From: Ulota crispa
Lineage: Eukaryota; Streptophyta; Bryopsida; Orthotrichales; Orthotrichaceae
NCBI GenBank assembly: GCA_963920765.1
Contig: OY987246.1
Coordinates: 15,682,868-15,746,867 of the forward strand
Length of the DNA stretch: 64,000 nucleotides
Direction: 5' to 3'
A program made the translations under genes and the position numbers. Numbering within the stretch: the first letter of the stretch is position 1; each line of letters starts with the position of its first letter. Positions 1,410 to 49,080 of this stretch are shown here, piece after piece. A model generated the notes under the pieces. That model worked only from the letters and a program-made list of their open reading frames with translations. It did no database searches and had not been told where the DNA came from.

Positions 1410-1536
1410 TAGAGAATTGTATGTGCCTCCAAGCATCCAAGCGGTGAGTCACAAGGTAACTTTCCCAAAGTAAGACAACCTAATTGTTAAGGCAACTTAA
1501 ATATAACATTTTGTGTAGAAGTTTTATTTAATATAT

Positions 1537-2456
1537 CCCCTAAAGCACTAAGCTCAAGTTTTCACCAAAACCGCTCCAAGACTGCCATTTCTAGTACAAG
1601 TACCAAATTTTAGAGAACAAAACTCTTTTTGACAAATGTAGCCATAAGATCTTGTACTATACTAATACAAAAATATGTGGAAAAAAATTTAGGAGTTGTC
1701 ACCATGTAGATTGTTAGATATTTGGGTTTGAATTGACAAAAAGCCATTTTTGTCTCTGCAAAATTTGGGCAGCTGCACTTCACAAAGTCATACATGTATT
1801 AAAAAAACTCCAAAATTGTTGTAATTTTTTGGATTTGTTCTTCAAAGAAAGTTGGATACTCAATGAAAATTTTCAAATCATTTGGAATTGTACAACATAT
1901 GGAAAAAAAAAGTAAGTAAAAAGATGTAGAGTATGATTCAAACCACTAAATTGTTAAGAACTTAAATAAGGAAATGAAAAATTCCAATCCCAATGGTTGT
2001 AATTTTGTAATAAATAATTTACATCTTTTGGTTTTGTTTTTTTTTCTAAAATATTAAAAATTGAGTAAATTAATGGACTTCCAAATTTATTTTAGAGTAG
2101 AGAATCCATAACTGCCGGCAAACAAAATCTCCCCTTAACTTTCATCTCATTGATCAAAATAGAAAGATTCAAAGCTTCCCAATTACATGTAAATCTAAAG
2201 AATCAATTTCAAAAAACAAAATTCAAAAAATGTAATTTAAAAAAAAGTTTTTGACTGCTTGCTGAGCAAAGAAAACTACATATCATGCAATAACTTTTGA
2301 ATCATGAAGTCAAAAGTTATGAAAATTGTTGGGCCTTAAAGCTACTCCTTGGACACATCATGTGTGAAAATTTCAAAGAAAAAATGAAAACCCCATTGGT
2401 AGTGAGCTACCCAAAATTGCTATGTTGCCCAAAAAGGGTGTTCAGTGCTTTAGGGA
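1537..2456. mobile_element. TTAA-family element T1, long subfamily
   Basis: Left end CCCCTAAAGCACTAAGC, right end (reverse complement) TCCCTAAAGCACTG. Flanks are ATAT (left) and TTAT (right), degraded forms of the TTAA target. Its interior matches, in inverted orientation, the element at 10635-11730 (for example the segment around ACACATGATGTGTCCAAG) and more distantly the one at 18307-19218. No transposase frame. Confidence 0.7.
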
Positions 2457-2610
2457 TTATCCACAAGTGTGAACATTGGTCAACATTGTAAGTCAAGTGA
2501 CTTTCCCCCAAAAGAAGGGTTTCAAGAAGTGTTAAACAATATCCTCATTTGGTAGTGCTTCCTAACACCACCGAAATTGGAGATTTTTGCGGGGAGTAGT
2601 TTCACTTTAA

Positions 2611-2836
2611 CCCTTAAAGGACCAAAGGACATAGTATATATGCTGACGTTTAATTATCATTTGCTATCAATAGGAAAATTTAATTTGGGATCTCAAGTAG
2701 CTCACTAAAACCGTATTGATCTATTTTCCAACTTCTTTGCTGATCTCAAATGTAGTAGAGGTGTACATCCATTACAAATACAAGAAAAATTCTCCATATT
2801 GTACTGGTCGCAAAGGGCCTCGCGGTCCTTTAAGGG
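2611..2836. mobile_element. TTAA-family element T2, short subfamily (226 bp)
   Basis: Perfect TTAA at both sides (2607-2610, 2837-2840). Terminal inverted repeat CCCTTAAAGGACC / GGTCCTTTAAGGG. Interior (GGACATAGTATATATGCT, then CAACTTCTTTGCTGATC) is shared with the elements at 43490-43716 and 31359-31573. Confidence 0.8.
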
Positions 2837-2840
2837 TTAA

Positions 2841-4317: not shown

Positions 4318-5715
4318 TTACGAGGAGCCCCAAACTCCTCGAAGGGATCCCATCTTGGAGCTGATTCCGGAACTGAGCTCCCAAAGGATGCGGGCAAAAA
4401 CATCCGACATTCGCTGCTCCACAACGGCCAGCTCAGCTATCTGGCTCTCGAAGGAGAGCATCACGGCTCTATTCTGAGGCTCAGACGCCAAGCTCTCCAA
4501 AGTAAGCACTGCCTTTCGACAAATTTCCTGCGGATGATCTCTGCCTGAACTGACCACTCTCAGCAGCCTCCCTACAGCCCAACGGTCGGTCGCGAGACGC
4601 AACCGGCAGTCAGTGTTGATCTCCGCAAAGTTGTGCAATGCTGCCACGGACGCAGCCACAGCGTCACCCGAGGCGTCGGTGCTCAAAAGCTCTATCAAAC
4701 GAGGAAAGATCTGGGAGACAAATGGCAAGAGAGACGGTTCGTTGTCAGGATTTACGACGAGTCGTCCAAGAAGCTCGGCTGCAGAGCAATGCCAGGGAAC
4801 TACAGGAGACATCAACATCATCATCACAGCGTCAATCACCCTCTTCTCCGACATTGTACTTCCCAAATTGCTTCCTTTGCTATTCCCATTGCTCATAAAA
4901 TTCTTGAAGCACAGAAAGGGTGCCAAGTTCAAAAGCGTCTCAATCGCATTGGTCACCAACTCCTCATCCTCCATCTCGTGGTCTTCCAAGGCAGTAATCA
5001 GCGTTTCTAAACATCGGCGATGCTGGGCCATCGACGCTTCGTTCTCCGGCATAAACGACAAGTTGCGCAGCACATTTGATACCGCCACTGCACAGACCTG
5101 CTTCTCGTGCCGACCAATTTCATCGAGATTGAAAAGCCCTTCCTCGTCCCAGCACCAGCCCTCTTTCGCTTCCACCACATCCTCCCCTTGCGCATTCTCT
5201 TCTGCCCCTGCCCTAACATGCACCAATGCATCATCAGGGGTGACTATTTCATACTCAAGGCCAAATCCCGTGTATGGCTGATCGGCTCCGAGCAAGCGGG
5301 GCCTGGACAGCTTCGCAAAGACCCGCTCCTGAGCAATATCCCGCCACTCGTTGATCACATGCAGAAGCGAATCAAGCAGACCGGGGACCTTGGCCAACGG
5401 CGTCGCATCCTTGCGCGTGTCATCCTTCTCCTTGAAACTCAACAACGTCAATGAATTAATCGCCCACGCAAGCTCGCCCTTCAACCCGCTCTGCAGCGCC
5501 ATGATGATCCTTTTGGTCTGTTGCTCTGCAAAATTGGGACTCACTTGAAGCACAGGACCGAGGTTGGGCCCAGGCAGCGGTGGATGCACCGCTCCAGCGT
5601 TCGCAGGCTCCGTGTGCCCTGCATTGTTCGTATTGTTTCCGGCGTTGGCCGCTGCAGGCCGCCCCCGCTTCTGGCCGCTTCCACCTCCTGCCCCTGCTGG
5701 CCCGGCCATTACCAA
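4318..5715 (-). CDS. LFR: LFR-type ARM-repeat protein, SWI/SNF complex subunit
   Basis: Single open frame of 465 residues, intact from ATG to stop with no intron. I recognise it as the plant LEAF AND FLOWER RELATED protein, an armadillo-repeat subunit of plant SWI/SNF chromatin remodellers acting in the nucleus. The N-terminus (about 1-55) is low-complexity Gly/Ala/Asn/Pro with a KRGRP core (16-20), which looks like an AT-hook or nuclear localisation signal. From about residue 65 the conserved body starts with ALQSGLKGELAWA and LLSFKEKDD, followed by GLFNLDE, NVLRNLSFMPENE, EDEELVTNAIETLLNLA, GRLVVNPDNEPSL and the family-typical end WELSS...GVWG. Length matches the Arabidopsis protein (about 460). 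The start at 5715 keeps the basic N-terminal block. Several overlapping frames on both strands are shadows caused by high GC. Orthology is a family-level judgement from memory and strong. Complex membership is known for the family, not shown by this sequence. Confidence 0.93.
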   Translation of the reverse strand: MVMAGPAGAGGGSGQKRGRPAAANAGNNTNNAGHTEPANAGAVHPPLPGPNLGPVLQVSPNFAEQQTKRIIMALQSGLKGELAWAINSLTLLSFKEKDDTRKDATPLAKVPGLLDSLLHVINEWRDIAQERVFAKLSRPRLLGADQPYTGFGLEYEIVTPDDALVHVRAGAEENAQGEDVVEAKEGWCWDEEGLFNLDEIGRHEKQVCAVAVSNVLRNLSFMPENEASMAQHRRCLETLITALEDHEMEDEELVTNAIETLLNLAPFLCFKNFMSNGNSKGSNLGSTMSEKRVIDAVMMMLMSPVVPWHCSAAELLGRLVVNPDNEPSLLPFVSQIFPRLIELLSTDASGDAVAASVAALHNFAEINTDCRLRLATDRWAVGRLLRVVSSGRDHPQEICRKAVLTLESLASEPQNRAVMLSFESQIAELAVVEQRMSDVFARILWELSSGISSKMGSLRGVWGSS

Positions 5716-6280: not shown

Positions 6281-6455
6281 CTATATAAAAAAAAGACTCT
6301 TTCTTGACTAAGCACTATGACTGCCGTGAGTCATTTTGGACAGTCCATAATGACTCACGGCAGTCATAATGACCAAAATGAGTCACTATGGACTGTTTGA
6401 AATGACTCACGGCAGTCATAGTGCTTAGTTAAGAAAGTGTCTTTTTTTTGTAGTG
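6281..6455. mobile_element. Foldback element with three nested palindromes, CACTA-like right end
   Basis: The right end reads (reverse complement) CACTACAAAAAAAAGACAC. The left end is a mutated copy (CTATATAAAAAAAAGAC). The segment GACTGCCGTGAGTCAT occurs three times in alternating orientation, so several hairpins can form. Ends suggest a CACTA-type MITE; no clear 3-bp duplication remains. Confidence 0.6.
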
Positions 6456-6959: not shown

Positions 6960-6963
6960 TTAA

Positions 6964-8128
6964 CCCCTAAAGGCCCAAGCCTTTTTTTTCTGTGAAAGTC
7001 ATTGAATATTGCCACTTTTGGGGTAATGAGTAGAAAGGTAGGAAAAAAAGTTCATGTTGGAAATTCAATAGTAACTTCTTGCCCTAGACTTTGGGAGGTA
7101 CTTGTGGAAAATAACCAGCTCATTCTAGATGTAGAGGAGTGACATATTGACATCTGAAGTGCAAAAACAAGTATTTTTCCCTAGTGCTCAAAAATTTGAG
7201 AAGCCTTCGGCCGCTCCTATATCAAAAAAATTGCTTTACGCAAAGTAAAGGTTTATTTTTTCCATGTAGAAGACCAAGTTTGGTAAGTGTGGGAGAATTT
7301 TCAAATGAATTAGAGGTGTGAGTCATACTTTGTAAAATCTTGCAATGCCGTAAAGCCATGAAATTTGCATATACACTAGGCAAAATTGGAGGATTTATGT
7401 AAAATTCAAAAATTTGAATTATATTAGAATAAAACTGTAGAAAACTATGTTCCACTTAACAAAACCATATGAAGTTGACTGTGTTGGGTTCTCCCTTTCC
7501 AAAGCAAAATTCCTTGTTCCCATGCAAAATATTGCATTGAAATGTGGAATTTTTCTTTGGAAAGGGAGAACTCAACACAATCAACTTCATATGGTTTTGT
7601 TAAGCGGAACACAATTTTCTCTAGTTTTCTTCTAGCTTTGATCCAAATGGCAAAAACCAAGGAATCTTCGTCTACTACAACTTGGGAAAAAAAAAGTCAA
7701 AAAACAAATACACAAAGAGCTCAAAAAAGTAAAGCACCAAATTTTACAAGGGGCAAAAGGAATGAAGGCTTGGGAGTCTATACCTACCCGCAAACTAAAG
7801 CTTCTCATAACTTTCATCTCATCAATCAAAATAGAATGATAAAAAGCTTGCCACATACATATAAATCCAAAGAACCAAGTCCAAATTTTATTTTAAAAAA
7901 TGCAATTTAAAAAAAAAAATTTGGGCTACCCGCCCTCCCCCATTTTTGGAAATTCATGCATAACTTTTTCAATAAATGTTGGAATGAAGGAAAAATTAAA
8001 CACCCATGCAGATTTTTGAATTCCTCATCTTCCATAAAAATTTCAAAAAATCACACAAAGTAATTTAGTTGTAAGAACATGCCCAAAACCTCACTTGGAC
8101 CTTGAGGGGCCACTTGGGCCTTTAGGGG
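6964..8128. mobile_element. TTAA-family element T3, 1165 bp
   Basis: TTAA at both sides (6960-6963, 8129-8132). Ends CCCCTAAAGGCCCAAG and CTTGGGCCTTTAGGGG are a perfect 16-bp inverted repeat. The interior matches 9075-9855 in opposite orientation. It carries a second foldback insert at 7425-7634. No transposase; the 100-residue-scale frames inside are not conserved proteins. Confidence 0.85.
7425..7634. mobile_element. Foldback MITE nested in T3
   Basis: Arms of about 75-90 bp: TAGAATAAAACTGTAGAAAA at the left and its inverted relative ending CTAGTTTTCTTCTA, with shared inner parts CTTAACAAAACCATATGAAG. The related element at 9075-9855 lacks this segment and reads directly across the site, which confirms an insertion. 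Confidence 0.75.
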
Positions 8129-8132
8129 TTAA

Positions 8133-9070: not shown

Positions 9071-9074
9071 TTAA

Positions 9075-9855
9075 CCCCTAAAGGCCCAAGTGTCCCCTTG
9101 GAAGACAAATGGACCTTGGACATGTACTTATGACTAAACCTATTTTTATAACAAATTTGAAACTTGTCAAGAAGGTGGGGAATTCAAAGATGTACATGCT
9201 CATTTAATTATTTCTTTGTTCCGACAATTATTGAAAACAATATGCATGAATTTTTGAAAAATGGGGGAGGGTGGGCACTCTAGGTAGCCCAAAAAACTTC
9301 TTTTAAAATTGCATTAAAAAGATATAAAACTCTGGACTTGGTTCTTTAGATTTTTATAAATGTGGGAAGCTTTCAATCATTCCATTCTAATTGATGAGTG
9401 AGAAGTTTTAGTTTGTGGGTAGGGATAGGACTCCCAAACCTCCATTCCTTCTACTCCTTGTAAAATTTGGTGCTTCATTTTTATTTTTGACGTTTTTTTT
9501 TCTCAAGTTGTAGTAGACTAAAATTCCTTGATTTTTGCCATTTGGATCAAAGTAACTCAGATTTCTGAATTTTACATAAATCCTCCAATTTTGCCTAGTA
9601 TATGCAAATTTCATGGCCTTACGGCATTGCAAGATTTTACAAAGTATGATTCACACCTCTAATTCATTTGAAAATTTTCCCACACTTACAAAACTTGGTC
9701 TTTTACATGGAAAAAATAAACCTTTACTTTGCATAAAGCAAATTTTTTGATATAGGAGCGGCCGAAGGCTTCTCAAATTTTTGAGCACTAGGAAAAAATA
9801 CTTGTTTCTGCACTTCAGATGTCAATATGTCACTCCTCTACATCTAGAATGAGCT
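9075..9855. mobile_element. TTAA-family element T4, truncated copy of T3
   Basis: TTAA at 9071-9074 followed by CCCCTAAAGGCCCAAG. Homologous to T3 in inverted orientation, but similarity stops after GAGCT at about 9855 and no right end is found there. Either truncated, or its true right end is the solo terminus at 12451-12464, with later insertions between. Confidence 0.7.
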
Positions 9856-10630: not shown

Positions 10631-10634
10631 TTAA

Positions 10635-11730
10635 CCCCTAAAGCATTGAACACCCGTTTTTGGCAACACAGCAATTTTGGGTAGCTCACTATCAATGGGT
10701 TTTCATCTTGTTTCTTTGGAATTTTCACACATGATGTGTCCAAGAAGTAGCTTCAAGGCCCAACAATTGTCATAACTTTTGACTTCATAGTTCAAAACTT
10801 ATTGCATGTTGCATGATATGTAGTTTTCTTTGCTCAGCGAGCAGCCATATAACTTCTATAAAAATTACATTTTTTGAAATTTATTTTTTGAAATTGGTTC
10901 TTTAGATTTACATGTACTTGTGAAGCTTTGAAACATTCTATTTTGATGAATGAGATGAAAGTTATGAGGAGATTTGGTTTGCCGGCAGTTATGGATTCTC
11001 TATTCACTAGAAGAAAAATGGCAATAAACAACTAAGTAATTTAATTGTTGTGCAGTTATTGTGACCATATGTAGTTGTTTTATAGTTGTTATATGGTCAC
11101 ATATGGTCATAGTAACTGCACAACAACTAAATTCCTCAGTTATTTATTGCCGTTTTTCTTCTAGTGACTCTAAAATAAACTTGGAAGTCCATTAATTTTC
11201 TCAATTTTCAATATTTTAGAAAAATAACAATACCAAAAGATGTGGATTGTTTATCACAAAATTATAACCATTGAGATTGGAACTTTCATTTCCATAATTA
11301 AGTTCTTAACAATTTAGTGGTTTGAATCATTTTCTACTTTTATTTTAATTGCTTTTTTTTTCTCCATGTGTTTTACAATTCCAAATGAATTGAATATGTT
11401 CAAGTGTGTACCTGACTTGCTTTGAAGAGCAAATCCAAACAATCACAATGATTTTGGAGTTTTTTTAATACATGTATGACCTTGTGAAATGCAATTTCTT
11501 AGATTTTTGTAGAGACAAAAAATGGGTTTTTGTCAATTCAAACTCAAATATCTAACAATCTACATGGTGAAAACTCTTGAATTTTTTTTTCCACATCTTT
11601 TGATACTAGTGTAGTACAAGATCTTATGGCTACATTAGTCAAAAAAAGAATTCTAAAATTTGGTACTTGTACTTGAAGTGGCAATCTTGGAGCAATTTTG
11701 GTGAAAAACTTGAGCTTAGTGCTTTAGGGG
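10635..11730. mobile_element. TTAA-family element T5, long subfamily
   Basis: TTAA at both sides (10631-10634, 11731-11734); ends CCCCTAAAGCATTGAAC and GCTTAGTGCTTTAGGGG. Interior is homologous to T1 (inverted) and T7. A CACTA-like MITE (11005-11166) is inserted in it. Confidence 0.85.
11005..11166. mobile_element. CACTA-like foldback MITE nested in T5
   Basis: CACTAGAAGAAAAATGGCAA at the left, TTGCCGTTTTTCTTCTAGTG at the right. Flanks ATT and ACT; the uninterrupted site in T1 and T7 reads CTCTACTC, so the duplicated target was ACT with one later mutation. 162 bp, arms of about 60 bp. Confidence 0.8.
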
Positions 11731-11950
11731 TTAATTAAATACAAGAATAAAATTGGTTTGATAGTCAAGTTTGACTTTCAATTATGGGTTGTGGATGTTT
11801 TGGATGTAAAAATAAAATAACGAGTTGAAATTTTTTCACACTAATCTCTAATGATGTTTGTACGTCTTGCAAGAAAACCAAGTAATTTGGATTTTTTTTG
11901 CTATTTTAATTTACTTAAGTTCATTTTTAGAAAAAAATTCATAACAATTA

Positions 11951-12450: not shown

Positions 12451-12464
12451 CCTTTAGGGGTTAA
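12451..12464. repeat. Solo right terminus of a TTAA-family element (T6)
   Basis: CCTTTAGGGG followed by TTAA, preceded by CAAGT, as in complete family members. No left partner nearby; the best candidate is 9071-9080. Confidence 0.6.
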
Positions 12465-14314: not shown

Positions 14315-15274
14315 TCATGGATTGGACCTTCTCTTCAAGTCGAGTGTCAATGGCTTGGCCCCTCGCCGTCTCTTCCAGAGCAGCACTTCTTCGCTGGCAC
14401 TGACTCTAGCATTCGCCATAGCCACCGGCGGTCGAGCAAAACTGCGAGTCTTGGTTTCGCAAGCTCGGGAACAACGAGCATCGCGATCTTCACGTGCCTC
14501 ACTCTCCAGCTGCAGCATGAGCAGCGACTTGGCCAGGAACGTGCCCGTCTGTTCGGCCTCCACCGCCGGAGCTGCTGCGGTGGCCGCCGTGCCGGAGCTG
14601 AACCGGCTGAGATCGACATGAAACTCGCCGTCGGTGCATTTTGCAGCTGGTTGGCTGGGATTCACTGTTCCTCTCGCACCCAGAATCTGTCGCCACTTGG
14701 ACGGCCTTGGCGATGGCTCGGGCGTCAGCTTCTCTTGCTTGGATTTCAAGGTTCGCAAATCAGGTGTTTTTGGCGGTGTTTTGGGCGGTGTTTTGGGTGG
14801 CGTTCTCAGCTTTTCCTTCTTCACCTGCGCCCCGCAACAGTGAATGACGGTCAGTTATCCTTTCTGCTCGCAATGTAGGCAAAATCTCACCACATGCAGG
14901 GAGATCACGGCATACTGCTCGGCTTGGTGGGCAAATTAACCCTCTAGGATGCTAGGTTTCATCCTCGAGGTCCTCTATGCTAGGTTCAGGCTTAAGGTTA
15001 CTTGGTTCTGCTTGTGGCATAAAAAAGATCGACATTGTGTTGTCTGTGTGAGGTTTGCAAAGAGATTGAAAGGCCATGCAGTTGCGTGTCGACCTTACAA
15101 GTGGAAGTATTTGCATGCAAGTACCTGTCCAATGCAAGTGACCACCGGCGACGTGGGGTCATCGTCGCTTTCGTGGTCGGCATCAATTCTGTCCAGAAAC
15201 CCCGCGCGTGGTAGCGACTTCACGGGTTGTACAGAGGATGCACCTTGTCTCTGCGACCCTGTCACGGTGACCAT
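14315..15274 (-). CDS. Uncharacterised plant protein with a VTCIGQV motif, 2 exons
   Basis: Exons 15125-15274 and 14315-14824 (right to left) join at a GT-AG intron in phase 0 to about 219 residues. The junction creates SPVVTCIGQ|VKKEKLRTP, resembling the conserved VTCIGQV-basic motif I know from an uncharacterised plant protein family. A TPPK repeat follows, then SKWRQILGARG, GEFHVDLSRF, an Ala-rich linker, TFLAKSLLMLQLESEA, and a basic end LWKRRRGAKPLTLDLKRR. Acidic HESDDDPTSP precedes the junction. No catalytic domain is visible, and it looks like a small, basic, partly disordered, possibly nuclear protein. The region is a GC island (about 14260-16750) in AT-rich DNA, as for other genes here. 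The start at 15274 is the first in-frame ATG after an unclear upstream region; extra 5' exons are possible. The gene model is moderately sure; the function is unknown. Confidence 0.55.
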
Positions 15275-18076: not shown

Positions 18077-18306
18077 TAAGCCCCGCTTTCAAGTATGACC
18101 AATGTTCACAAATGTGACTGGTTATAGCCATAAAATTTTTTTAAAGAGTTATGCTAAAATAAATTTAAATGGCAGAACAACTAAGGAATTCTATTTCAGA
18201 TTTTTTTTGCCACAAACTTACCTCATTGGGTTGTAGCTCACATGAAAAACTTGGTGAAATGGATGAAAAAGTCAAATCCCTCTCAACAAAATACTAGGCG
18301 GCTTAA

Positions 18307-31354: not shown

Positions 31355-31358
31355 TTAA

Positions 31359-31573
31359 ACGACTGAGCAGCCCTTTGCAACTAGTACAACACATGGTATT
31401 TTTCTTGTATTTGGAGTGCATCCACATCTTTATTACATTTGAGTCAACAAAGAAGTTAGAATATAGATCAATGCTATTCTAGTGAGGTAATCAAGATCCC
31501 AAATTAAAACTTTTTGTTGGTAGCACATGCAACGTACATACTATGTATTATAGTAGCTTGGTTCTTTGAGGGT
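31359..31573. mobile_element. TTAA-family element T12, short subfamily, inverted
   Basis: TTAA at 31355-31358 and 31574-31577. The interior aligns along most of its length, in reverse, with the elements at 2611-2836 and 43490-43716 (for example TGGGATCTTGATTACCTCAC in reverse complement). One terminus is eroded. Confidence 0.65.
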
Positions 31574-31577
31574 TAAC

Positions 31578-34049: not shown

Positions 34050-36867
34050 ATGGCGCATTGGGACTCACAAGCAATGCCGATACTTCAAGTTCTGAGCTTA
34101 TTCATCCTCGTCTCTAGTGCAGGTAACAACAGCCAGTACATTGTTCTACCTTCTCATCCTCTAAGCAGGGTTTAAGGAGAGTTTAAGAGTCGTTTAAGCT
34201 TGATATAGAAACAATGACCCTGAGCGCCATTGCTATGATCGCGTGGCAATCTCTTTGTTCATTCTAATATACAAGTGGTCTGTTTCGTAGCGTAATGATT
34301 TTGGTTGTTAGAGTTAGATCATAAAGCTGGAACTTCGCTAGCATACGAGATTGCTGCAGTCTCTGCTGTTTATTGGTAATCTACGAAGCACCAGAATTTT
34401 TTGTGTGGCCATGGTGGTTTGCTCCAGTTCTAATGGGGACTCTCGATGAGCTTTTGTGTTTGTAATGTATGTAACAATGTTGACTTTAGGGGAGTTTTCT
34501 GACGTCTCTCACGCATTGGAAACGTGTCTATATCGCCGTTCCAGGAGCATCCATTGGGGTGAACTATGGAACATACGGAGACAACCTGCCACCACCGGCA
34601 CAAGCGGTGGCGCTCTTGAAAAAGTCCGGCGTCACGCAAGCGCGTATCTACGACACCAACCCGTCCGTGCTGAACGCCTTCCAAGGCTCCAACATTCAGC
34701 TGGTGGTGAGCGTGCGAAACGACGAGATCATAGGCATCGGGCAGGACAACGCCACGGCGTACAAGTGGGTGAACGACCGCATCGTGCCCTACGCCGCCAA
34801 GTGCAACATCACTGGCATAGCCGTGGGGAACGAGGTGCTCAGCTACGAGTCCAGCCAATCGCTGTTGCTGCTTCCGGCCATGAAGCTCATCCACACAGCT
34901 CTCGTGTCCTACAAACTCGACAGCCTGGTGAAAGTGACGACCCCGTGCTCCACTGATCTGCTGGTTTACAAGTACCCTTCTTCTGCTGGAGCATTCAACA
35001 CCAACTTCTCCAAGATCATGGAGCCCCTGGTGGATTTCCTCTCGGCAACTGGCTCCTTTTACTTCCTCAACGTGTACCCTCACAAGGAGTTTCAGCACAG
35101 TCAACAGAACATCACCCTGGAGTTTGCGCTTTTTCAACCGAACCCCGGAGTGTTGGACTCCGGCACTGGGTTCCTGTACACCAACGCTTTTGATTCCCTT
35201 CTGGATGCCACGTATGCTGCTTTGGCTAAACTGAACCGCACCGACCTGCAGATCGTGATCAGTGAGACAGGGTGGCCGTCGAATGGAGAGGCTTACGAGA
35301 AAGGCTTGTCTCCCGTGAACGCGCAGGTTTATAACTCCAACCTCGTGAAGCACGTGTTGAGCAAAGTGGGCAGTCCCGGGAGGCCCGGAGTGCTCATCAT
35401 CACGTACATTTATGAGCTTTTTAGTGAAGACAAACGGCAGGGGTCTCTGTCCACTCGCAGCATGGGCTTGTTCGGTATCGACATGGCGGCCGTGTATGCG
35501 GTGGATCTCTCGGGCAGCCAAGTCACCATCGTCAACCCTGGCAGTAGTAGTCACACGCCTGCGCCTGCTCCTCCCACTCGCACTTGGTGCGTTGCAAAGT
35601 CGGTATGTGACCTCTTCTCTTCCTTCTCCAGCACCATTTTGTGCTTCCGTTTTAGAGAAATTTTTGTTTTCTTTGCCATTATTTGGTCTCATTGTGAGAG
35701 GATTGTGTTTCAGAAAACTTGGTCTGAGTTTTTTGGTTTTGCTGTTCAGGATACCACTCAGGAGAATCTGCAAGCAGCACTTGACTACGCTTGTGGTCTT
35801 GGGCAAGCTGATTGTATGCCCATCCAATTAGGCCAGCCGTGCTTCTTGCCGAATACTCGCTTATCCCATGCATCCTATGCGATTAACAGCTACTACCAGA
35901 AGAACTCGAATGCACTTAACTCTTGCAACTTTCAGGGAACTGCAACAATCACAACGAAGGATCCAAGTGAGTTTTAATTTTCATACCCTGAATTAGCAAT
36001 CTTCGCATTTGCCAGCAATTGCTTTTCAACCAATTCCATTGAAAAAAATAACCATTATATTGTTGGTGTTTATAAAAACTTTGCCTAATTGAACTGGGTC
36101 GATGACTTCTGATACTACTCAAGTTGTTGACGAAACAGTTTTGTATTCAACCAAGCACTTCAATTCGGGCCACCTAGCAAAGTCGAGATTTTAGTTGGTT
36201 ACTAACCAACACATGCAGTTCTTTTCACAAATTCTGGTAGTGAAAAATTTAGCTCCGTAGTCTTCACGATGTGAGTTCAAGCCAGTTGGTCAGTTCAGTA
36301 ACATGAATCTGAGGAAAGAGGACAACTTTTTTCCTGTTATCCAGCGATCTTAAAATGGGCTAATTTTCGCATGATTTCTACCAAACGTTTTTTTACAGCT
36401 AAAAAACATGTGAACTATACAGTGTTAAATTTGAAAACTTCGGCTTTTTAGCAGTCTTTTTAGCCACTCGAGCCACAACATATAATCATGTGTGGGATAA
36501 CTGGTGTGAATTGTTTCAAAGGTCCACGCTATTCATTTCTAAGAGATCTAGTGCATAACTACAACCACGTGGTAAATGTGCAGGTTACACGAATTGTACT
36601 TTTCCATCGAGGTATGTCTATTTTCTTTCACAGTTAATGCGAACCACAATGCTTCTGCAACTTTTTCCTAATGGATCATCGTTTTTGTGGTACAAACATT
36701 ACTTAGAATCTAATGCTGGTTATTACTTTTCTATGTTTCTCTTGCATTTGTGCAGCACGCATTTAGGGGCAGGACAAACATCCTCAGCCAACTACGTTGC
36801 TCCAAAGTACGGGCTCTTGCTCTTATCAGCAGTTGCAGCATTGACGACAATTTTTAGCGCTAGATAA
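34050..36867 (+). CDS. GPI-anchored GH17 beta-1,3-glucanase with X8/CBM43 domain
   Basis: Exons 34050-34122, 34545-35602, 35750-35966, 36584-36611 and 36756-36867 give about 495 residues. Exon 1 encodes a signal peptide (hydrophobic VLSLFILVSSA). The GH17 domain begins IGVNYG (28-33). The acid/base Glu lies in AVGNEVL (E121) and the nucleophile Glu in ISETGWPSNG (E265). After a Ser/Pro/Thr linker, an X8 (CBM43) domain starts at WCVAK (about 372) with the usual spaced cysteines (ALDYACG, ADCMPIQ, PCF, CNF, NCTF). The C-terminus is hydrophobic (LLLLSAVAALTTIF), typical of a GPI-anchor signal. Such enzymes hydrolyse callose at the cell wall and plasmodesmata. An alternative start is ATG at 34074. 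Intron 2 (35603-35749) is 147 nt and open in frame, so its retention would still give a full-length protein. The long frame on the opposite strand is a shadow. Confidence 0.92.
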
Positions 36868-37742
36868 TGAATCTAGCTTGCCTTCAGTTTTTCCCAACCA
36901 GGGCAATAATCAATATTTTTGCTCAAGCAGACACTAAGCGGAGAAGGTTGTTACGCATTAACATCCGAAGATGTGCAAGTTTTGAAAATCCCTTCAACAA
37001 TTGGAAAACAGGATAGCATGGGGAATTAAAGCAACGTACCGCTAGTTTTAGGTACTCCATTATTTGAAGACCATGTACTCAACGTAGGCCCATTCTTGAA
37101 GGACAACAATTTTGATCAGGTACAGGGCATTATGAAAGTCTAGAGCATCTCGGCCCGCCCTTCCAGTGACACTATATTTTCTATCATCCTTATCATCAAT
37201 TTTCTTCTCGGCATTCTGTAGGTTTATGAAAAGGTTCACTTACACTAAAAATGAAGACTTTGCCATATAGACACTTTATTTGCCACATCGGTCTGCCGCG
37301 TGTATCAATAAACCAGGCGTGATTGATAGAGTTTTTATATTCTCTTGAAAAATGCATGTACTCAAACTGTATGCCATGGTTCATTAACATGAAAGTTTAC
37401 AAAGCAGAAGCTGACCTGTTTCACACTCTTCTCAGAATTACAAAATATAAAAATGTAGCATGCTCCTTATAAGACGACGAAATTGAAGCTGAGTTTCATG
37501 CATAAAAGTCAACAAAAACAGTGTAAGCAATAAGCACTCATTATCGATCCTTGTCCAAGAATATGGTCAACTACTTAACACAGTATTCTATTGAACATGT
37601 TAGATACTCTACTTCGATAATCTCTAAATATGTTAATGACTAATTACTCCCAAACTTACACAGAGCGTTTTGGGTTAGATTTTCAATAACATATACTCAT
37701 GGCGTCTAAACTAAGGTAGAAGCTTCTAAACGCGTGCAGGTC
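36868..37742. other. 3' flank of the beta-glucanase gene
   Basis: AT-rich non-coding DNA after the stop codon; nothing further recognised. Confidence 0.45.
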
Positions 37743-38076
37743 CTAAAATGGTGCACCTCAAATGTACTTTTTGTGCACATCTTATTCATAGCCCTTCAAC
37801 ATGGAGTATAATGGATTCATTTTGGTAAGCAAAATTATCATTGCGTACTTAAATTATCCTGATCAAGTATACCACAAATCAATTTCAAAAAAGAAGAATT
37901 TCATTTGTGGTGGATTCTTGAAGTGAATTTTCCTAGTTTTATATGATATTCTATTAAAAATAACTGGTAATGAATTTTTTTAAATAGATGAAGGAGATGT
38001 GTAGAGAACATCCATGCACATGTCTTCTCTTCAACAAAAAGGTTTCACAATTCTTTCTATAGAGTTTTTAGTGTTT

Positions 38077-38263
38077 GGGGGACAATGTCCAAATTATGTG
38101 AAAATTGATATTTCTTTATTAAATTCAGATTTTGGCATTTGCCCCTCACATGGTATGTACTTTTGGACATTTGAGCATGTGAGCATGATGGATCAATTAC
38201 TTTGCCAAAATCCAAATTTGATAAAGAAATATCAATTTTTACAAAATTTGGACATTGTCCCTC
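38077..38263. mobile_element. Foldback insert inside the large inverted repeat
   Basis: Ends GGGGGACAATGTCCAAATTA and AAATTTGGACATTGTCCCTC are inverted; further pairs (AATTGATATTTCTTTAT) extend the arms. It interrupts the left arm exactly before the central TTAA. About 187 bp. Confidence 0.7.
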
Positions 38264-38267
38264 TTAA

Positions 38268-38667
38268 CCCATTACGGACTATTTGACTAGTTTTTGGTCG
38301 ATTTTGACTCTTTTCAGTTTGTAGAGAGAGCATGTCAAGGAATTTGATGACATGGCAAAGGAGATGGATTTAGGGAATTGGAAAGTGAAGAGTTTAGGAC
38401 AATAACCATGTCAATTTGAGGTGGCATGTGGCTAGAGGGTTGAAAAAACTAAAAGAGTACCAAAAATACACCAATAAATGCAAAAAGATGGCCATAACAC
38501 CTAAAGAGTGAGCATAATTCATGATGCATAATACTAAATGCTGCAAGATACTTCCATTTGTATGGTCAGATTTGTGATAGACATTTGTATTCAATAATCC
38601 TAAAATGTCCCCCAAATGGAAATACAAAGGATTGCCCACCCCAAAATCGATCACGGTTGTTAAAGGG
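38268..38667. mobile_element. TTAA-family-like segment T13 (400 bp)
   Basis: TTAA at 38264-38267 and 38668-38671; ends CCCATTACGG and TTGTTAAAGGG resemble family termini but match each other imperfectly. Because it lies at the centre of a larger inverted repeat, it could simply be that repeat's loop. Confidence 0.45.
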
Positions 38668-39223
38668 TTAACACTAAAAGCTCTATAGAAAGAATTGTGA
38701 AACTTTTTTGGAGATGCTTGTTGAAGAAAAGACATGTGTATGGATGTTCTCTACACCTCTCCTTCATCAATGTTAAAAATTCATCACCAATTTTTTTACT
38801 AGAATATCATATAAAATAAGGAAAATTCACTTTAAGAATCCACCAGAAATGAAGTTTTTCTTTTTTGAGATTGATTTTTGGTATACTTGATTGGGATTAT
38901 GTAAGTATGCAATGATATTTTTTCTTACCAAAATGGACCAATTATACTTCATGTTTTATAAAAAAAACCTAGATGGCCCAAATGAGCCATTTGTAAGCAT
39001 TTGATACCCGACTGTACATTTGAGGTGGTGCACCATTTTAGAGCCCTATGGCCTTTCCACTTCAAAATTCATGACTAATTCCACAAAGCTCCAAAAAAAA
39101 TGAAACAACTTGGGTTAGATGCCAATTCCTTTTGTCTTTCAAAAAAAATTGAAAAATAAGAAGTTTTACCTCTCCAAAATTTGGTTTCAATTGTTAGATG
39201 CTACATTCATGTGCCTCCTAAGG

Positions 39224-39438
39224 TAGAGTGCTCTAATTCAATGTGGTGTTCTAATTTGGTGCACTTCTAGGAATAATTGACATGTTCCTTTGAATATCTA
39301 TTACTGTCATTGATGAGTTAGTGGGCTTACCAAATATGCTAAGCCCGCCTAACTCATCAATGACAATAACAGAAATTTGAAGAAACATGTCAATTATTCC
39401 TAGAAGTGCACCGAATCATAACATTCAATAGCACTCTA
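39224..39438. repeat. Foldback repeat, arms of about 95 bp
   Basis: TAGAGTGCTCTAATTCAATG...AGTGGGCTTA pairs with TAAGCCCGCC...AATAGCACTCTA; TTGGTGCACTTCTAGGAATA is perfectly inverted. A third, partial inverted copy of the outer arm lies at about 39656-39705, so the whole may be a larger element of about 490 bp. Confidence 0.7.
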
Positions 39439-39705
39439 CAGGCCTACCCTCTCTCCAACTAAAGAGTGTGGAATATTCCACACCCATCAGTAGCTAAGAG
39501 GACACTTAGTTGAATTTGTCAGAGAGTTTATGAAAGAGAGGCTGAGTTTAGTGCACATACGACAATGTGGGGGCCAGCCATGTTAGAAAATTTAATTAAA
39601 AAAAAAAAAAATCCGAGAGAAAGGCAGCCTCTCTTCAGGCTACTGAATGTTATGATTAGAACACCACACCGCACCAAATTAGAGCACACTACCTTACCTT
39701 ATAGC

Positions 39706-40584
39706 CTTGGGACTAAAAGACGAAATGCATCGTTCTTATGGTTACGAAGCTTGTGAATAACGGCCCAACAAAATTCCAAAACAGACTTTTTATACACGTA
39801 CTTTTCTTTTAAGAAAAACGTATCTAAACATCATATTTTCATTCCTAGTAAAATGACGTGCAATCTCATTATATAATTACAAATTTAGCCAAAAGTTCGC
39901 ATTCTTTTTTGTAAAACTTCATTTCAGCTATAAATTGCAGTACCAGAAAACACAATTCCAATACTAAAACCACAATAAAAAGCAACGAATTGAATATTGA
40001 TGATCCAGTTTTCTATTTTGTTTTTTGATTGTTTCCTATAGTACATTTGTAAAATTTGGTTCTACACATGCAGCACTCTTCATTTCTTATTTCAGAAGGT
40101 CAACATTAAATCCACAAGCTTTTCCATATGAATCATAATGCACGTACCAATTGTTCCAATTGCACGTGGCTTTTCTTCAACTTGCAAAAACAACACTTCT
40201 GACATTTTCATATGGCATGTGAAAACGTCTCAAACACGATCTTCTCCTTTACATTCTAATAAAGGAAATCATTCAGAGTTTTCAGGTAAAAGTAGGAAAA
40301 TCGGCAAGACCCTTGCCCACGTTGCAACCAAGACACGGATAGTGCGCAATACAAACTTCTATTATCTGATATTATATAGCCAAAGAAGTAGAGAAAGAAT
40401 GTGGTTAATCAGAGAAACATGTATAAGTAAAAAAGAATGTACAAATGATATCCAGAGCCACAAAGCTATGAGTGCCTGTTCAAAATAATTATGCAGAACG
40501 AGAGCACACAGTCTCTTACTAAAAACCCGTATGAAGGAATAGGACTCGACCGATGCAAACAGATCCAAGAGCAATTCTCAAGGC
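39706..40584. other. 3' flank of INO80C and intergenic DNA
   Basis: Non-coding, AT-rich. The first 100-200 bases next to the stop codon probably belong to the INO80C 3' UTR. Confidence 0.4.
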
Positions 40585-42950: not shown

Positions 42951-42958
42951 TGTTTTGA

Positions 42959-43464
42959 CCCCTAAAGGACCAAGTCCCCTTTTGGGGGACAAATGGGATT
43001 TCGGGCATGTACCTATGGCTAAATTATTTTGCGTGATTTTTTTGATGAGGAATTCAAAGATTTACATGGGCATCTAATTTTTTCTTCATTCTAACATTCA
43101 TTGAAAAGGTTAAAAATGAATTTCCAAAAATGGGCGAGATCAAGCAGCCTGAAAACATTTTTAAAAATTGCATTTAAAAAATAAAAATATGAAATAGGTT
43201 CTTTAGACTTATATATACATAGGGAGCTTTGAATCATTCAATTTTCATTAATGAGATGAAAGTTACAAGAAGTTTTTGTTTACAAGTTGGTGTATTTTTA
43301 ACTTTTTCAATGAATGTTAGAATGAAGAAAATATTAGATGCCCATGTAAATCTTTGAATTCCACACCTTCAATAAAGTTTCAAATAATCACAAAAAGTAG
43401 ATTAGCTATAGGTACATGCCTGAAATCCATTTGTCCCCCGAGGGGACAGTTGGTCCTTTAGGGG
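42959..43464. mobile_element. TTAA-family element T8, self-complementary foldback form
   Basis: Left flank TTGA (42955-42958, one change from TTAA), right flank TTAA (43465-43468). Ends CCCCTAAAGGACCAAGTCCC and GGTCCTTTAGGGG. Unlike T3, its arms are inverted copies for about 160-180 bp (for example GGAATTCAAAGATTTACATG vs CATGTAAATCTTTGAATTCC), and the arm matches one end of T3. 506 bp. Confidence 0.82.
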
Positions 43465-43489
43465 TTAACATTTTCATGGCAACCTTTAA

Positions 43490-43716
43490 CCCGTAAACAA
43501 TAATAGGACATAGTATATATGCTATTGTATAATTGACATTTGTTACCAACAAGACATTTTAACTTGGGATCTCAAAAAGCTCACTAAGGATTGCATTGAT
43601 CTATTTTTCAACTTCTTTGTTGATCTTGAATGTAATAAAAGTGTGAATCCATTCCAAATACAAAAAAAACACCTTGTATTGTATTGGTCACAACGGCACG
43701 CTTACTTGTTTAAGGG
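43490..43716. mobile_element. TTAA-family element T9, short subfamily (227 bp)
   Basis: TTAA on both sides (43486-43489, 43717-43720). Ends CCCGTAAACAA and TTGTTTAAGGG. Homologous throughout to 2611-2836. It lies only 17 bases from T8. Confidence 0.82.
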
Positions 43717-43720
43717 TTAA

Positions 43721-43894: not shown

Positions 43895-46024
43895 GAGTGG
43901 AAGAGTTTGGCTAGTGAACTAGATTGCAAATTTTTTTGAACAAGGACCGGCGCAAAAGCAGTTTGTTCCCAAAATGGAACCTTGTTTATAGGTTGATGAT
44001 ACACTCTTTGTTAGGACTAGTTTCCACGAGGGTCCAAGGGTTGGAGGGGGCTCAAGGTTGTAGGTGAGTTTGAACCCTCTAGGAGCTTTCCTTTGGAAGA
44101 ATTGTAGGGGCCAATTTTAGGAATTAGTTTCTTTTTTATTTCTTGTTTTTCCATGAAAGATTAGATTAATCTGAATAAAATGAATTGAATAAGTTTTTTT
44201 TAAGTCAAAGCTATACAAAAGACATCAAAACTTTAGAGTTTTTTTTCTTAAAAAGTTTTTAATAATTTTTATTTTATAGTTTTGGATTTCAATATTCTAA
44301 TTCTTATTCCTTTTTTAATAAAAAGAAACCAGTTGCATGAGAAAAACCAATTACATGAAAAAGACATTCTACAATTACACTTTTTGTAAACTACCAATAT
44401 GTTCAATTATTACTTTCCCGTTTGTTCAAGTTAAAAATCTAGATTTCCTTAAGACTTAAATTAGAATAATATCAAAAGTTTAATAAGTTTGAGGAATCAG
44501 CTTAAAAAAATTGAGAGCTTAAAAAAAATTCTTCAGATATTTCTATCAAATTAAAAATGCATATTTTTTTTATTTTGCAAAATTGGCAAGAGACAAATGT
44601 TCAAAAAAAAAGAGTGCAAATTTTACTATTATTAATATCAAAATAACTATAAAAAAGTTATTGATTGGTTTTTTTGATAAACCATAAGTTTTTAGTTTAT
44701 AGAAAATATTGAAAAAAAATTGATAATTTTTTTAATTTAGAATGATTATGTGAAATTTGTTAATTTTAATATAAAAAAAATCAAAAAAATCTTGCCATGT
44801 GGCGCTTTGGAGCCACCTTCCAATTAGGGATCCAAGCCCTTCAGATTTGTAAGGCCTAAATACAAGGGTTGAAGGCTAAATGACCATCTGGCGGGAAGCT
44901 TAGACCTCTAACTGCAATGTAAATGACAAGAGGGGTCCAAGCTCCACTTTGATCAACCCCATGGCAACATGTCCTTACTATATAGTTCAATTGTTTGTTT
45001 AACTATTGGTGCAATTGTTGGCCCAATTTAGGAATCATCCAGTTTTATCAATGGGGTTGCTTGAATTCTTGAATTGGGACATCAATAGGGTCTCCAAGGC
45101 TTTTTGTGGAAGTTGACATTATTGGTCTTGCTAATGACATGGTTGTTTAAATGACAAATTTTTGGTGCCAAGAACTAGACCTAAGTCAAAAATTGGATCA
45201 CTACAATGCATTGATCCAATTCAAGAATTTTCACTTGTTTTGTTAATTTGAAATCAAACCATTAGTTAGGGCCACTATTTTTGAATTAGGAAGTAACTTG
45301 TATGTATATTGGATTTAAACTTTTTTTGGTATAATGACTTACATGACACTATATAAGCGGTTATACAATTTGGCAAAATCAACAAGTCTAGAGGTGTCTA
45401 CATGGTCATACAAATGCTCATATGGTTATATATGGATTCACATTATTTCTTTGTGTACTTTATTTTTGTCCATGCTATCCATCCAAATAAATCAAATTGA
45501 GCCAACCACTCATTGTGCTTCCCAACTAACAAACTTGATGTCTCCCACACAACCATGTGGAACTTGAGCTTCAAGAATTCCAACCCCTTTTTAAAAAATT
45601 TAAGGAGACTGAATCTTACAATTTATTTAGTTGCTCAAACAAAATTGAACATGCATATATAATGTTCATATAATGTTTTATTGAAATGATATAAACTAGG
45701 AGTTTCAACTTTAAAATGTAGTAGATGCTTAGATGCATTGTAGTCAATATGTTTGAAATCAAAAACTGTACATGCAACACTAGAAATTACTCATATCAAT
45801 GTTTGAATCTCAATTCCTTGACAAACCTACATAGGACCAATTTTTAACTCTCCAATTTGAAGACTAACTGATTCTCAAATTTCTATGGCCTTGACTCACA
45901 CCGTCTTCCACTAAATACAATGCTTACATGCAATATTCAACTTTTCTTCAACGACTTTGACCATCACGCCAAAGTAAAGAGTATACCTTTTGATTGCAAA
46001 TATTATCATAATGAAAAAGCTTTG
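43895..46024. other. AT-rich intergenic DNA, nothing recognised
   Basis: About 2.1 kb, very AT-rich in 44150-44790. No coding frame with family features. Confidence 0.5.
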
Positions 46025-46028
46025 TTAA

Positions 46029-46392
46029 CCCCTAAATGTCCAAGAGGACAAAAATCCTCCTTTCAATGCCAAAAAAATACCATGAGGGTGGGAAAAAAAA
46101 AAAATCAAATTTTTTTGAAAGTGGTCACATAGATATGCCACATCATTGAATGCCAAAAAAAGCCGCTTTCAATGACCCCATACTTTTTAAAACACCAATT
46201 TGTGAAAAGATGTATAATGTCATGTGCTGCCCTTTTTGTGAGGGCAGCATACACTATTGACTTTTCCTTTTTTTGAGGAGAACATTATCTTTTGTGGGCA
46301 CATGCCACTTGCTGTTCATTGCACATGAACAGTGTATTCTCCTCAATCTAAGCCCCAAGTTGCCCACGGATTTAGGGTCCGTCCTTTAAGGG
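46029..46392. mobile_element. TTAA-family element T10 (364 bp)
   Basis: TTAA on both sides (46025-46028, 46393-46396) with outer TTTG/CAAA also mirrored. Ends CCCCTAAATGTCC and GTCCTTTAAGGG. Internal hairpins: GCTGCCCTTTTTGTGAGGGC and TGTTCATTGCACATGAACA. Confidence 0.8.
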
Positions 46393-46396
46393 TTAA

Positions 46397-47009
46397 CAAA
46401 ACAATTCAATAGTAAGCAACCCTTTGCAAATAATGAATACTACACGGACCATGTTGTATTTGATAGAAAGATAAGGGAGTCTAAGTGGTCCTAGCATTTG
46501 AACTATATACTCCTCTTTTAGATTAAATTATTTTAGTTGCATCTTCATTCTTAAATTCCCCCAAAAATCTAGAACCTACAAGAAGCAGTCTTTTTAAATT
46601 ATGTAGCTACACCAGAAAGTTTGTGTTTGAATCTGGAAATATTTAGCTCAAAATAACATTTAACCACTACAGTAACCCTCCCACGGTAGTAAGCTACGGA
46701 TGTCACAGCGATAGGGTTCCACCGTGGCTCCATGGACATTTTGTCGTCGAAGTCGCCGCGGAGGGCATGTTCCGAAATATATGTTTTAGGGTTCCGATCA
46801 TCGATACTCCTCCGCATCGCTCAATTCTTCACAATCGTAATTTCCAGTTGCTCTCTCATACTCCACATTTTTCCAGTGTTTCCAGTCTTGTCAGTTGATC
46901 CTTGCTCTCGCACTGATTGTTGCAGAGCAGAATTGTTTTTAAAATTCTCTCTCTTTTTCAGCAAGCTTTCGGAGTTTCGAACATTTGAGAGGAATTCGGG
47001 GATCCGACC
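46397..47009. promoter_or_regulatory. Presumed GLTP1 promoter and leader
   Basis: CT-rich leader-like sequence precedes the ATG (CTCTCTCTTTTTCAG at about 46947-46961). An upstream ATG frame from 46732 overlaps the start codon in another frame and could act as an upstream ORF if transcribed. Confidence 0.35.
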
Positions 47010-49080
47010 ATGGCGGAATCCACTGTCACCGTGTTCGGGCCTGCATTGGAAATGATGAAGAGCGTCAAATCGTCGGACGGGCAGATGCTGACCAAGCCTT
47101 TCCTCGACGTCTGTCGCAATGTGCTTCCTGTGATCGGTGACTGTCGCTCAGATCTTTAGGTCTTCTTCAGTTGATTAGGACTCTTGTTAGGAATCCCGTG
47201 TACTTTACATTTAGATCGTATTTTTTGAAGAAACATATATCGAGCTTGTAATTTACACTCGGATGCTCAGATCTGTGTCGTAGGTTAGTGGAAGACGATC
47301 TGACGATGGGATGGTGGTCTTGCAGACAAGTTTGGGAGCTCGATGGCGTTGGTAAAATCAGACGTTGGCGGCAACATTTCGGTACTGTCATCATGTCCCG
47401 TTAATTTCTTTTTCTAGCAAGAACATCTCAGTACACCGTTTATTTCAGTTTTTGCAAGATGCGCTTTTTTTTTATATTCAGTGTGTCCTTTAACAGATTA
47501 ACCTTTATTGTTACAGCTTTAATGACCAATGGGAGAGTCAGAGAGTTTCATCTTCCTCTAATAATCATTGAAAATTTGTGGTCTTTTTTTTTCGTTGGTT
47601 CGAAAATGTTTAGTGCAGCAACAGTGTGCCTTGCAGGAGTTAAAATAAATGTGTTTATGAGTTAACAGCATTTTACTGTGGCCCTAATTGGAGATGAATG
47701 TATTGGTCTCCCTGGATTTTCAACTGGCTATGCAGATCTGAGAATTTTGTGTTGTTTACCTGCAGAGACTGGATGATAAGTATGCGAGTGATCCCTCTGG
47801 AAACAGCGTGCTGTATGACATTGTTGGTGCTGAAGTTGCGGCTAAGACTGCCAAGGGTTCATCAAGCTGCACCAATGGTTTGCTATGGTTGACCAGGTAA
47901 GATTATCCCCTAAAGGACCAAGTTTCAAAATGGCCTATATTCTGAAAGTCCAGATTTAGCATTAAAATTGCATGTGCTGGGAAAAGTACATAAGTTGAAC
48001 ATGACCTACTCAAAGCTGCTTTAATTATTTTTTTAAAAGCTCAATCTTGGCTTCCTGGTTCTTTAGAGGTTATAATCACTCTATTTCGGTTTGACGAGAC
48101 ATTGTTTGGATTTGTACTAATGGAATTGTAAATTGCTCCTGCGGTATTATCTCGGATCCCCTTGGGCTTTTAGGTCGCAATCGTAGAAGGTTTTGTAGGG
48201 AACGTAATTGAGAGAGTTTTGTTGGTTAGTTATTATTATATATTATATCATGTGCGTTTTAGCTGATCTGATGCCGATTGGGTGGCCCATGGGTTTCTTT
48301 CTCGTGAAGATGTTTTGGATTGCGATCTATGTCTCATATCAAGCACCTGGCAGAGCTATGGATTTCTTGGTGGAGCTCTTCCGGAATTTGAATGCGCACG
48401 CTGACTGGTCGATGTCACAGTGTGCTTCTGCTGCCTACACATCAACTTTAAAGAAATATCATGGGTGGATTGCAAGTGCTGCATTTACGGTAGGTAGGAG
48501 AAATCCAATGTACTTCATCAAGGATACCTTTTCTGTGTAGATTATGGAATTCCGCCCAAGAGGTGTGGAACAAACCTCGGATGCGGTATCAAATCATGAC
48601 TTTCTTTTTTAAATGTTTGAATTTTGCATCAAAGAAGATATTACGTTTGATAATTAGAAACTATCTGGCTTTTTCAACTTTTTTGAAATTTGCATGAACA
48701 AAGTTGATGTTGATGGGACTGTCAAAGTTCAAAAATGTCTTATATTGATCTTTGACAAATCAATTTAGGAGCATTGTGTTTGATCGGTCACCAAATTATG
48801 CCTTTTAGAAACTGAAAATTATTTAATTATTTAATATAATCACTACTACATTATATATTGAAAAACGGATAACTCACTGTTTAGCTTTTATTTCACAGTA
48901 ATGTACTTGTTTGGGTCATTCTTGCAGGTGGCTATGAAGCTAGTACCTGAGCGGTCCAAGTTTTACGAAACTTTGGGACTTGGCAACTCTTCTGCAGACA
49001 TAGAGCGATTTGTAACTGAGTTCTCACCTATTTTGGAGGAAAATCACAAATTCTTGGTGAGTGCCACTGAATCTGTATGA
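47010..49080 (+). CDS. GLTP1: Glycolipid transfer protein, GLTP1-like, 5 exons
   Basis: Exons 47010-47136, 47326-47381, 47766-47896, 48354-48489 and 48928-49080 join in frame (phases 1,0,2,0) to 200 residues, the normal GLTP length. Recognisable blocks are MLTKPFLDVCRNVLPVIDKF, LVKSDVGGNISRL, AKGSSSCTNGLLWLTR, AMDFLVELFRNL, TLKKYHGW and FSPILEENHKFL. The sphingolipid headgroup-binding residues of the fold are present: Asp55, Asn59, Trp102 and His141. Arg62 replaces the Lys of the human protein, as in other plant GLTP1. The protein is a soluble cytosolic carrier that moves glycosylceramides between membranes. The last exon may use an alternative donor (TTG|GTGAGT at about 49056), which would change only the last few residues. 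Intron 3 carries a small TTAA-family transposon starting ten bases after the donor. Confidence 0.94.
47907..48069. mobile_element. TTAA-family element T11 in GLTP1 intron 3, TSD TTAT
   Basis: CCCCTAAAGGACCAAG at the left and CCTGGTTCTTTAGAGG at the right. Flanked by TTAT as a direct repeat (47903-47906, 48070-48073). Because TTAT is not palindromic, this copy shows that the four flanking bases are a target duplication and not part of the terminal repeat. 163 bp, the shortest member. Confidence 0.78.

Follow-up and report, generated by a model that had tools for sequence, protein, structure and literature searches.

The stretch analysed here (the window; C5:15682868-15746867 in an assembly of 274.8 Mb and 157 contigs) is 64,000 nucleotides long and carries a series of short mobile elements with CCC-starting ends at TTAA sites, which are almost certainly non-autonomous piggyBac transposons, or miniature inverted-repeat transposable elements (MITEs), of a moss. 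It was studied together with the 200 kb upstream of it, 264 kb in all, and positions preceded by "reg" refer to this joined region (L009-L028 followed by the window; reg = window position + 200000). The moss host follows from an LFR gene on the minus strand at window 4318-5715, whose identity is 87% with Ceratodon purpureus, while Physcomitrium patens reaches 81% and Sphagnum 71%.

The first-pass annotation had listed at least eleven complete elements and two solo ends in the window, most of them bounded by exact TTAA. Re-reading of all eleven bears this out, as exact TTAA was found on both sides of seven elements (strand is unassigned, ".", for all features in this paragraph). These piggyBac-type MITEs are located at 2611-2836 (226 bp), 6964-8128 (1165 bp), 10635-11730 (1096 bp), 18307-19218 (912 bp), 38268-38667 (400 bp), 43490-43716 (227 bp) and 46029-46392 (364 bp, assigned by its ends). 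An eighth MITE, 42959-43464 (506 bp), shows the flanks TTGA/TTAA, and in the remaining three, flanks or ends have decayed or suffered damage: 1537-2456 (920 bp) lies between ATAT and TTAT, 47907-48069 (163 bp, likewise assigned by its ends) has TTAT on both sides, and 31359-31573 carries TTAA on its right side and lacks the outermost bases on the left, which are kept in its sister at 2607-2840 (74% identical). The two solo ends are a left-type end, which belongs to a truncated copy at 9071-9855, and a right-type end at 12451-12464, whose minus strand reads TTAACCCCTAAAGG.

BLAST comparisons within the window revealed a large CCCCTAAAGG group, formed by the elements at 1537, 6964, 10635, 18307 and 42959 and the truncated 9071 copy. 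Here, 10635-11730 is 86-88% identical to 1533-2460 in inverse orientation, 18307-19218 is 69% identical to the same element, and 42959-43464, whose long inverted ends align over 163 and 175 bp, is 73-80% identical to 6960-8132. The two ends of 6964-8128 are identical over 20 bases, TTAA counted in, and the 9071 copy matches 6960-8132 over 305 bp at 95% and over a further 512-column stretch at 73%. A second, 226-bp group comprises the elements at 2611, 31359 and 43490; with its target site duplication (TSD), the first of these (2607-2840) is 77% identical to 43486-43720 and 74% to 31353-31577. The element at 38268 stands alone, and those at 46029 and 47907 could be placed in no group. Two side observations concern these copies. 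Window 7117-7374 and 9598-9855 are 97% complementary inverse copies, closer than the other long repeat pairs listed for the window except one short pair at 96%, which suggests a relatively recent duplication or transposition. Furthermore, the MITE at 38268-38667 is enclosed by the inverted-repeat arms 37798-37960 and 38793-38955, and further inverted repeats are found at 39247-39423 and at 6284-6452; the arms of the inverted-repeat pairs are 88-91% complementary.

A weight matrix was derived from 114 ends, themselves taken from sites with TTAACC, and yields the consensus TTAA-CCC[C/T]TAAA[G/C]G[A/C]CCAAG. At a strict threshold of 18, it identified 56 ends of the left and 54 of the right type in the 264 kb (8 and 10 in the window alone), and none in either the reversed sequence or one first-order Markov copy. 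At a loose threshold of 13, 80 left and 69 right ends were identified, compared to 0 and 4 in the reversed sequence and 2 and 1 in the Markov copy. Genome-wide, TTAACCCCTAAAGG has 15,411 exact sites, compared to 1 for its reversed control, and chance is a poor explanation for the ends. The same 14-mer occurs 24 times in the 264 kb, so that this region is about 1.6-fold richer than the average of the 274.8-Mb genome. Fifty-nine mutually nearest candidate end pairs, 163-1931 bp in length, span 14.7% of the 264 kb, and a rough extrapolation, which is not a count, would put the genome total at about 35,000-40,000 elements, or about 9% of the genome.

The ends are tightly linked to TTAA. Genome-wide, TTAA directly precedes 3,038 of the 3,614 exact CCCCTAAAGGACCAAG ends, an enrichment that the first-pass annotation had named as a test of its piggyBac assignment. 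When the flank is left out of the score, TTAA stands directly before 76 of the 93 strong ends, compared to a background frequency of 0.73%. In 12 places of the 264 kb, two elements lie back to back with one common TTAA, an arrangement that is expected if the duplicated TTAA itself serves as a target. The terminal repeats also hold TTAA targets: in one larger piggyBac element, such a TTAA within the terminal repeat is occupied by a 909-bp, TTAA-flanked MITE (L033:728-1636). Two hallmarks of piggyBac, a TTAA TSD and a short terminal inverted repeat (TIR) starting with CCC or CCY, are consequently present.

Insertion at TTAA was further examined at empty sites. The flanks of 150 end pairs (all left-right combinations within the length limit and with sufficient flank) were joined and insert-free relatives were sought. 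This resulted in 43 alignments across the flank junction, many of them trivial neighbors or weak; the empty sites are paralogous and lie within repeats. On such sites a single TTAA was found, most clearly for three elements. The 623-bp element at reg 45637-46267 shows it in all three alignments (reg 115302-115142 at 83%, reg 23940-23838 at 81%, and a site inside the transposase-coding element E32 described below at 80%). For reg 35984-36895, three of four empty sites carry a single TTAA, including 11206-11341 at 93%, while 14700-14864 reads CTAA, and the only empty site of reg 151467-152122 also has it (85%). For window 38264-38671, it is present in two of six alignments (75-79%). A Tc1/mariner-type origin, in which TA is duplicated, the ends read ACCCC...GGGGT and the preference for TTAA arises by chance, would leave the same empty site, T-TA-A being indistinguishable from TTAA there, and Tc1-like elements are known in moss (PMC4054914). 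However, 26 of 27 exact CCCCTAAAGG ends have a T at position -4, an outer base that a TA-duplicating element does not need, and a TA duplication with free outer bases was rejected on this count. The moss Tc1-like elements described in the same text end in CAGT (PMC4054914), and elements co-terminal with the MITEs encode a piggyBac transposase. Taken together, this origin is barely credible.

A genome search with PF13843 (DDE_Tnp_1_7, the piggyBac transposase domain) gave at least 120 matches, all over the family cut-off, with a best E-value of 1.3e-73. This count is a lower bound as 116 of 528 candidates were scored, and a few loci are split over two rows. No PF13843 match was obtained in 14 control genomes. 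Most copies are interrupted: a stop codon lies inside the match in 110 of the 120 rows. A 368-residue open piece of locus L032 matches the sequences of the solved piggyBat (9c0f, E 1.7e-16) and piggyBac (6x67, E 3e-13) structures. The acidic motifs TVDE/TIDE, DNFF[ST] and GVDxxDQ were found, and by motif they would supply the DDD catalytic triad of piggyBac. The full set (TIDEMM/TVDEMM, DNFFS, GVDVADQ) is present in L031 and, over two open pieces, in L032, and one acidic motif is decayed in each of L033, L035 and L041. Cys-rich tails were recognized by eye in L031 and L032, and PF13842, the C-terminal zinc finger, gave no match. Within the 264 kb, 199 stop-to-stop open reading frames (ORFs) of at least 100 residues exist; among the 40 longest, the first 80 residues of which were read by eye, no transposase was detected, nor did a 2.6-kb composite from L020 reveal one in six frames with stops read as X.

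Seven transposase loci, a chosen rather than random set, were read with longer flanks, namely two top-scoring loci, four whose rows lack stops and the one nearest to the window; with these flanks, two of the seven are termed E32 (L036+L032+L037) and E31 (L038+L031+L039). Strong ends on both sides were found in two of the seven (E32 and L041), three have a second end that is weak or was placed by eye, and two have one end. E32 is 5.74 kb in length and both of its ends, which score 29.9 and 27.9, read TTAACCCCTAAATGCCTAA, each terminus consisting of TTAA and 15 identical bases. The L041 element measures 5,656 bp, with end scores of 17.8 and 16.7; it is flanked by TTAA at one terminus and by TTGA at the opposite one, and both of its ends are common to window 38264-38671 and two other MITEs. 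In an initial reading with 1.5-kb flanks, L029-L032 had shown no end within 3 mismatches, which seemed to be evidence against a link between ends and transposases; the longer flanks then gave both ends for L032 and one for L031. DDE_Tnp_1_7 is consequently found between the same kind of ends as those of the MITEs, clearly for E32 and L041 and one-sidedly for E31. Together with the TTAA enrichment, this result, for which the first-pass annotation had proposed looking inside larger like-ended elements, supports its superfamily call.

TTAA duplication alone has no discriminating power, as it is shared by other superfamilies such as Kolobok and Sola3. Xenopus T2-MITE/Kolobok elements, for example, also duplicate TTAA, but differ in their ends and use a transposase of another superfamily. 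Kolobok (or Sola3) MITEs are nevertheless a very improbable account of the moss elements, as same-ended elements encode DDE_Tnp_1_7 with TVDE, DNFF[ST] and GVDxxDQ, and E32- and L041-type elements contradict it through their co-terminal transposase genes. The loci that were read have PF13843 and not a Kolobok transposase between their ends, although no separate search for Kolobok or Sola was made.

Several MITEs can be traced to both ends of a transposase-coding element, and this co-terminal derivation is observed directly in the alignments. In the MITE at reg 114387-115305, 205 bp from the 5' end of E32 (65%) are joined to 564 bp from its 3' end (84%). Window 38264-38671 (TSD included) matches the L041 element with both termini exact (bases 1-196 to 1-196 at 65%, bases 259-408 to 5506-5656 at 64%), marking it as an internal-deletion derivative of a transposase-coding element, and has a second copy at reg 134281-133870 (92% identical). 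Reg 154558-155527 matches both L041 ends and the last 44 bp of L033 (84%), and a MITE end at reg 65017-65067 is 82% identical to the 5' terminus of L035. Four window elements share 59-219 bp (61-81%) with E31 at its 3' end: the left 219 bp of 1533-2460 (62%, E 2e-12 in BLAST), the left 59 bp of 6960-8132 (81%), the right 218 bp of 10631-11734 (61%) and the right 75 bp of 18303-19222 (73%). 42955-43468 and the 9071 copy join this E31-linked group via 6960-8132.

The transposases themselves are diverse, the moss pieces being 31-43% identical to L032. In a 34-row tree, in which L035 and L040 each cover less than half of the alignment columns, seven moss pieces and ten other database sequences form one clade (100/98) that splits into L033, L041, L034, L035 and L040 (99/95) on the one hand, and L031, L032 and the ten database sequences (94/93) on the other. 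The first-pass annotation had suggested that one transposase may have mobilized several lines. The core CCCYTAAANG is indeed common to the subfamilies, and piggyBac-family elements can be cross-mobilized. However, the identities of 31-43%, the two tree groups and the match of different MITE groups to different transposase elements (38268 to the L041 type; 6964, 18307 and others to E31) make it unlikely that one transposase lineage moved all subfamilies.

These observations lead to a model in which piggyBac elements of 5-6 kb would lose their interior and keep both ends, thereby giving rise to MITEs. PiggyBac transposases of several old lineages would then recognize the short CCC[C/T]TAAA[G/C]G[A/C]CC ends, and the MITEs would be cut out and inserted at TTAA by cut-and-paste, with duplication of TTAA. 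By analogy with the known biochemistry of piggyBac, this chemistry and the mobilization in trans are probable.

Several findings weigh against this interpretation and have to be set beside it. First, several transposase loci have imperfect ends. In L033, the 3' end scores 21.3, but the 5' end is split at an internal TTAA by the 909-bp MITE, leaving a left fragment that scores 8.3. L035, a 5.15-kb element with exact TTAA at both ends, has a 5' end of 18.7 and a weak 3' end, TTAACCCTCACCACC, that is off consensus at 6 of 14 positions. L034 (about 5.5 kb) has a 5' end of 18.6, a 3' end placed by eye (CCCCTTAGGGCCC) and the flanks ATAA and ATGG, TTAA being lost. E31 and L040 have one end each, at the 3' side (33.8 and 20.8); the 5' end of E31 was not found in the flank examined and the 5' flank of L040 is short. 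L029 and L030, with 1.5-kb flanks, show one weak end and none, respectively. A lone end near a transposase can be due to chance, given 149 end-like sites in 264 kb at threshold 13; because such sites are dense, a single end proves little, and the co-terminal matches carry the argument. Second, the largest group (CCCCTAAAGG) is tied to the transposase locus E31 by its 3' end alone, while neither a parent of 46029 and 47907 nor a relative of the 226-bp group was found among the transposase loci compared by BLAST. Third, the other four empty-site alignments of window 38264 read CTAA, CTAA and CAAA or are gapped, and one distant-repeat alignment each gives TTAT for 6960, ATAA for 10631 and CCAA for 18303. 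Finally, the transposase copies are mostly broken, and present-day transposition has no support here. Despite these points, a piggyBac origin of the MITEs is retained.

Many of the transposase genes are preceded by a further conserved domain of about 90 residues, located at L033:2424-2771(+), L041:1518-2150(+), L034:6814-7548(-) and L035:6782-7126(-). These four sequences are related (BLASTP E-values of 7e-13 to 7e-7 in the four pairs compared, out of six). The domain may be a separate protein or an N-terminal part of the transposase. The domain gave no Pfam match over the cut-off and nothing better than E = 2 against solved structures; the weak matches, which comprise an NCBIfam match below cut-off in one of the four members, Pfam matches below cut-off and the PDB profile match at E = 2, were taken as chance. 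Two genome searches with the domain returned non-overlapping sets of 50 and 41 rows, among which a few rows belong to the same locus, and the copy in L035 itself was missed, indicating that these searches miss copies. A scored PF13843 match was located 1.2-3.7 kb downstream on the same strand in 22 of the 50 and 26 of the 41 rows (48 of 91), compared to a chance expectation of 0.0013 per row, and no row had such a match within 6 kb in a different arrangement. The remaining 43 rows may go with transposases among the unscored candidates. Conversely, the domain precedes 47 of the 120 scored transposase rows. It was not seen in the L031/L032 group, for which no separate search was made. With roughly equal weight for and against, we propose that mosses harbor their own old, lineage-rich branch of piggyBac, which gained a conserved upstream domain and whose MITEs seeded about a tenth of this genome (an extrapolated figure). 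Within this proposal, end recognition, targeting or regulation may depend on the domain. If true, piggyBac would play in this moss the MITE role that is held by other DNA transposon superfamilies in seed plants. The upstream domain itself departs from the known layout of piggyBac in a concrete way that can be tested.

Other features were noted nearby. Another dispersed repeat, about 300-400 bp long, is palindromic and hairpin-like, aligning with itself in either orientation; copies are located at L032:36-446 and at reg 71164-71526, 77685-78098 and 94330-94616, with further copies at reg 135749-136084, 171470-171777 and 173020-173386. In the window, 53111-53313 and 58189-58394 form a duplicated stretch, about 5 kb apart and 78-81% identical, near ORFs at 52182-55721 that read like polyphenol oxidase, with 55023-55721 matching the tyrosinase domain. 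Window 34559-35977 encodes a GH17 beta-1,3-glucanase with an X8 domain, and the telomere-like unit CCCTAAA forms short interstitial arrays at 61143-61202 and 62495-62544.

With regard to distribution, two protein searches identified 17 and 32 relatives, all with PF13843. The sole named relative stems from the sea slug Elysia crispata (34% identity); the others come from the sources jgi, ena and lgn, and one jgi fragment is 80% identical over 37% of the query. The lack of a named plant protein among the 17 and 32 relatives is weak evidence on distribution, since annotation is usually preceded by masking of transposons and the search depends on shared words. Horizontal entry and vertical descent are both possible. 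No report of piggyBac in mosses was found among the titles and abstract openings listed from the open-licence literature (in one search, those of 20 of 875 papers); in one candidate, a moss genome paper, the word is "piggybacking" (PMC10619864). However, 1,230 PiggyBac-labelled repeats are reported for a fern (PMC6890710), plants are named among sources in one abstract (PMC10813416), and PiggyBac is listed among plant DNA-transposon superfamilies (PMC10794571), all of which argues against claiming a first report in plants. The present data offer plant-borne ends and transposases for study and explain a large repeat class, which might be misfiled by TIR/TSD pipelines that rely on five plant superfamilies. 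A moss with more than 100 transposase match sites, several lineages and, by extrapolation, tens of thousands of derivatives extends the documented hosts.

piggyBac is widely used as a genome-engineering transposon and is known mainly from animals. The moss elements resemble piggyBac (6x67) and piggyBat (9c0f) in their TTAA target, the short TIR starting from CCC, DDE_Tnp_1_7 and the three acidic motifs, and share with piggyBac the internally deleted non-autonomous companions. In contrast to piggyBac, they reside in a moss, many copies encode the conserved upstream domain, and the elements reach 5-6 kb compared to about 2.5 kb, the length of piggyBac being given as 2472 bp (PMC10813416). In the portions of a 2025 survey of 207 plant genomes that were searched, five classes of DNA transposons are described that are likewise short, high-copy and non-coding with TIRs, but the moss swarm belongs to none of the five classes named there; TTAA does not occur in these portions, and no occurrence of piggyBac is listed for the survey (PMC12550479). 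PpTc1 and PpTc2 are likewise moss DNA transposons with transposase copies, but differ from the moss piggyBac elements in their TA duplication, CAGT ends and DD34E transposase (PMC4054914).

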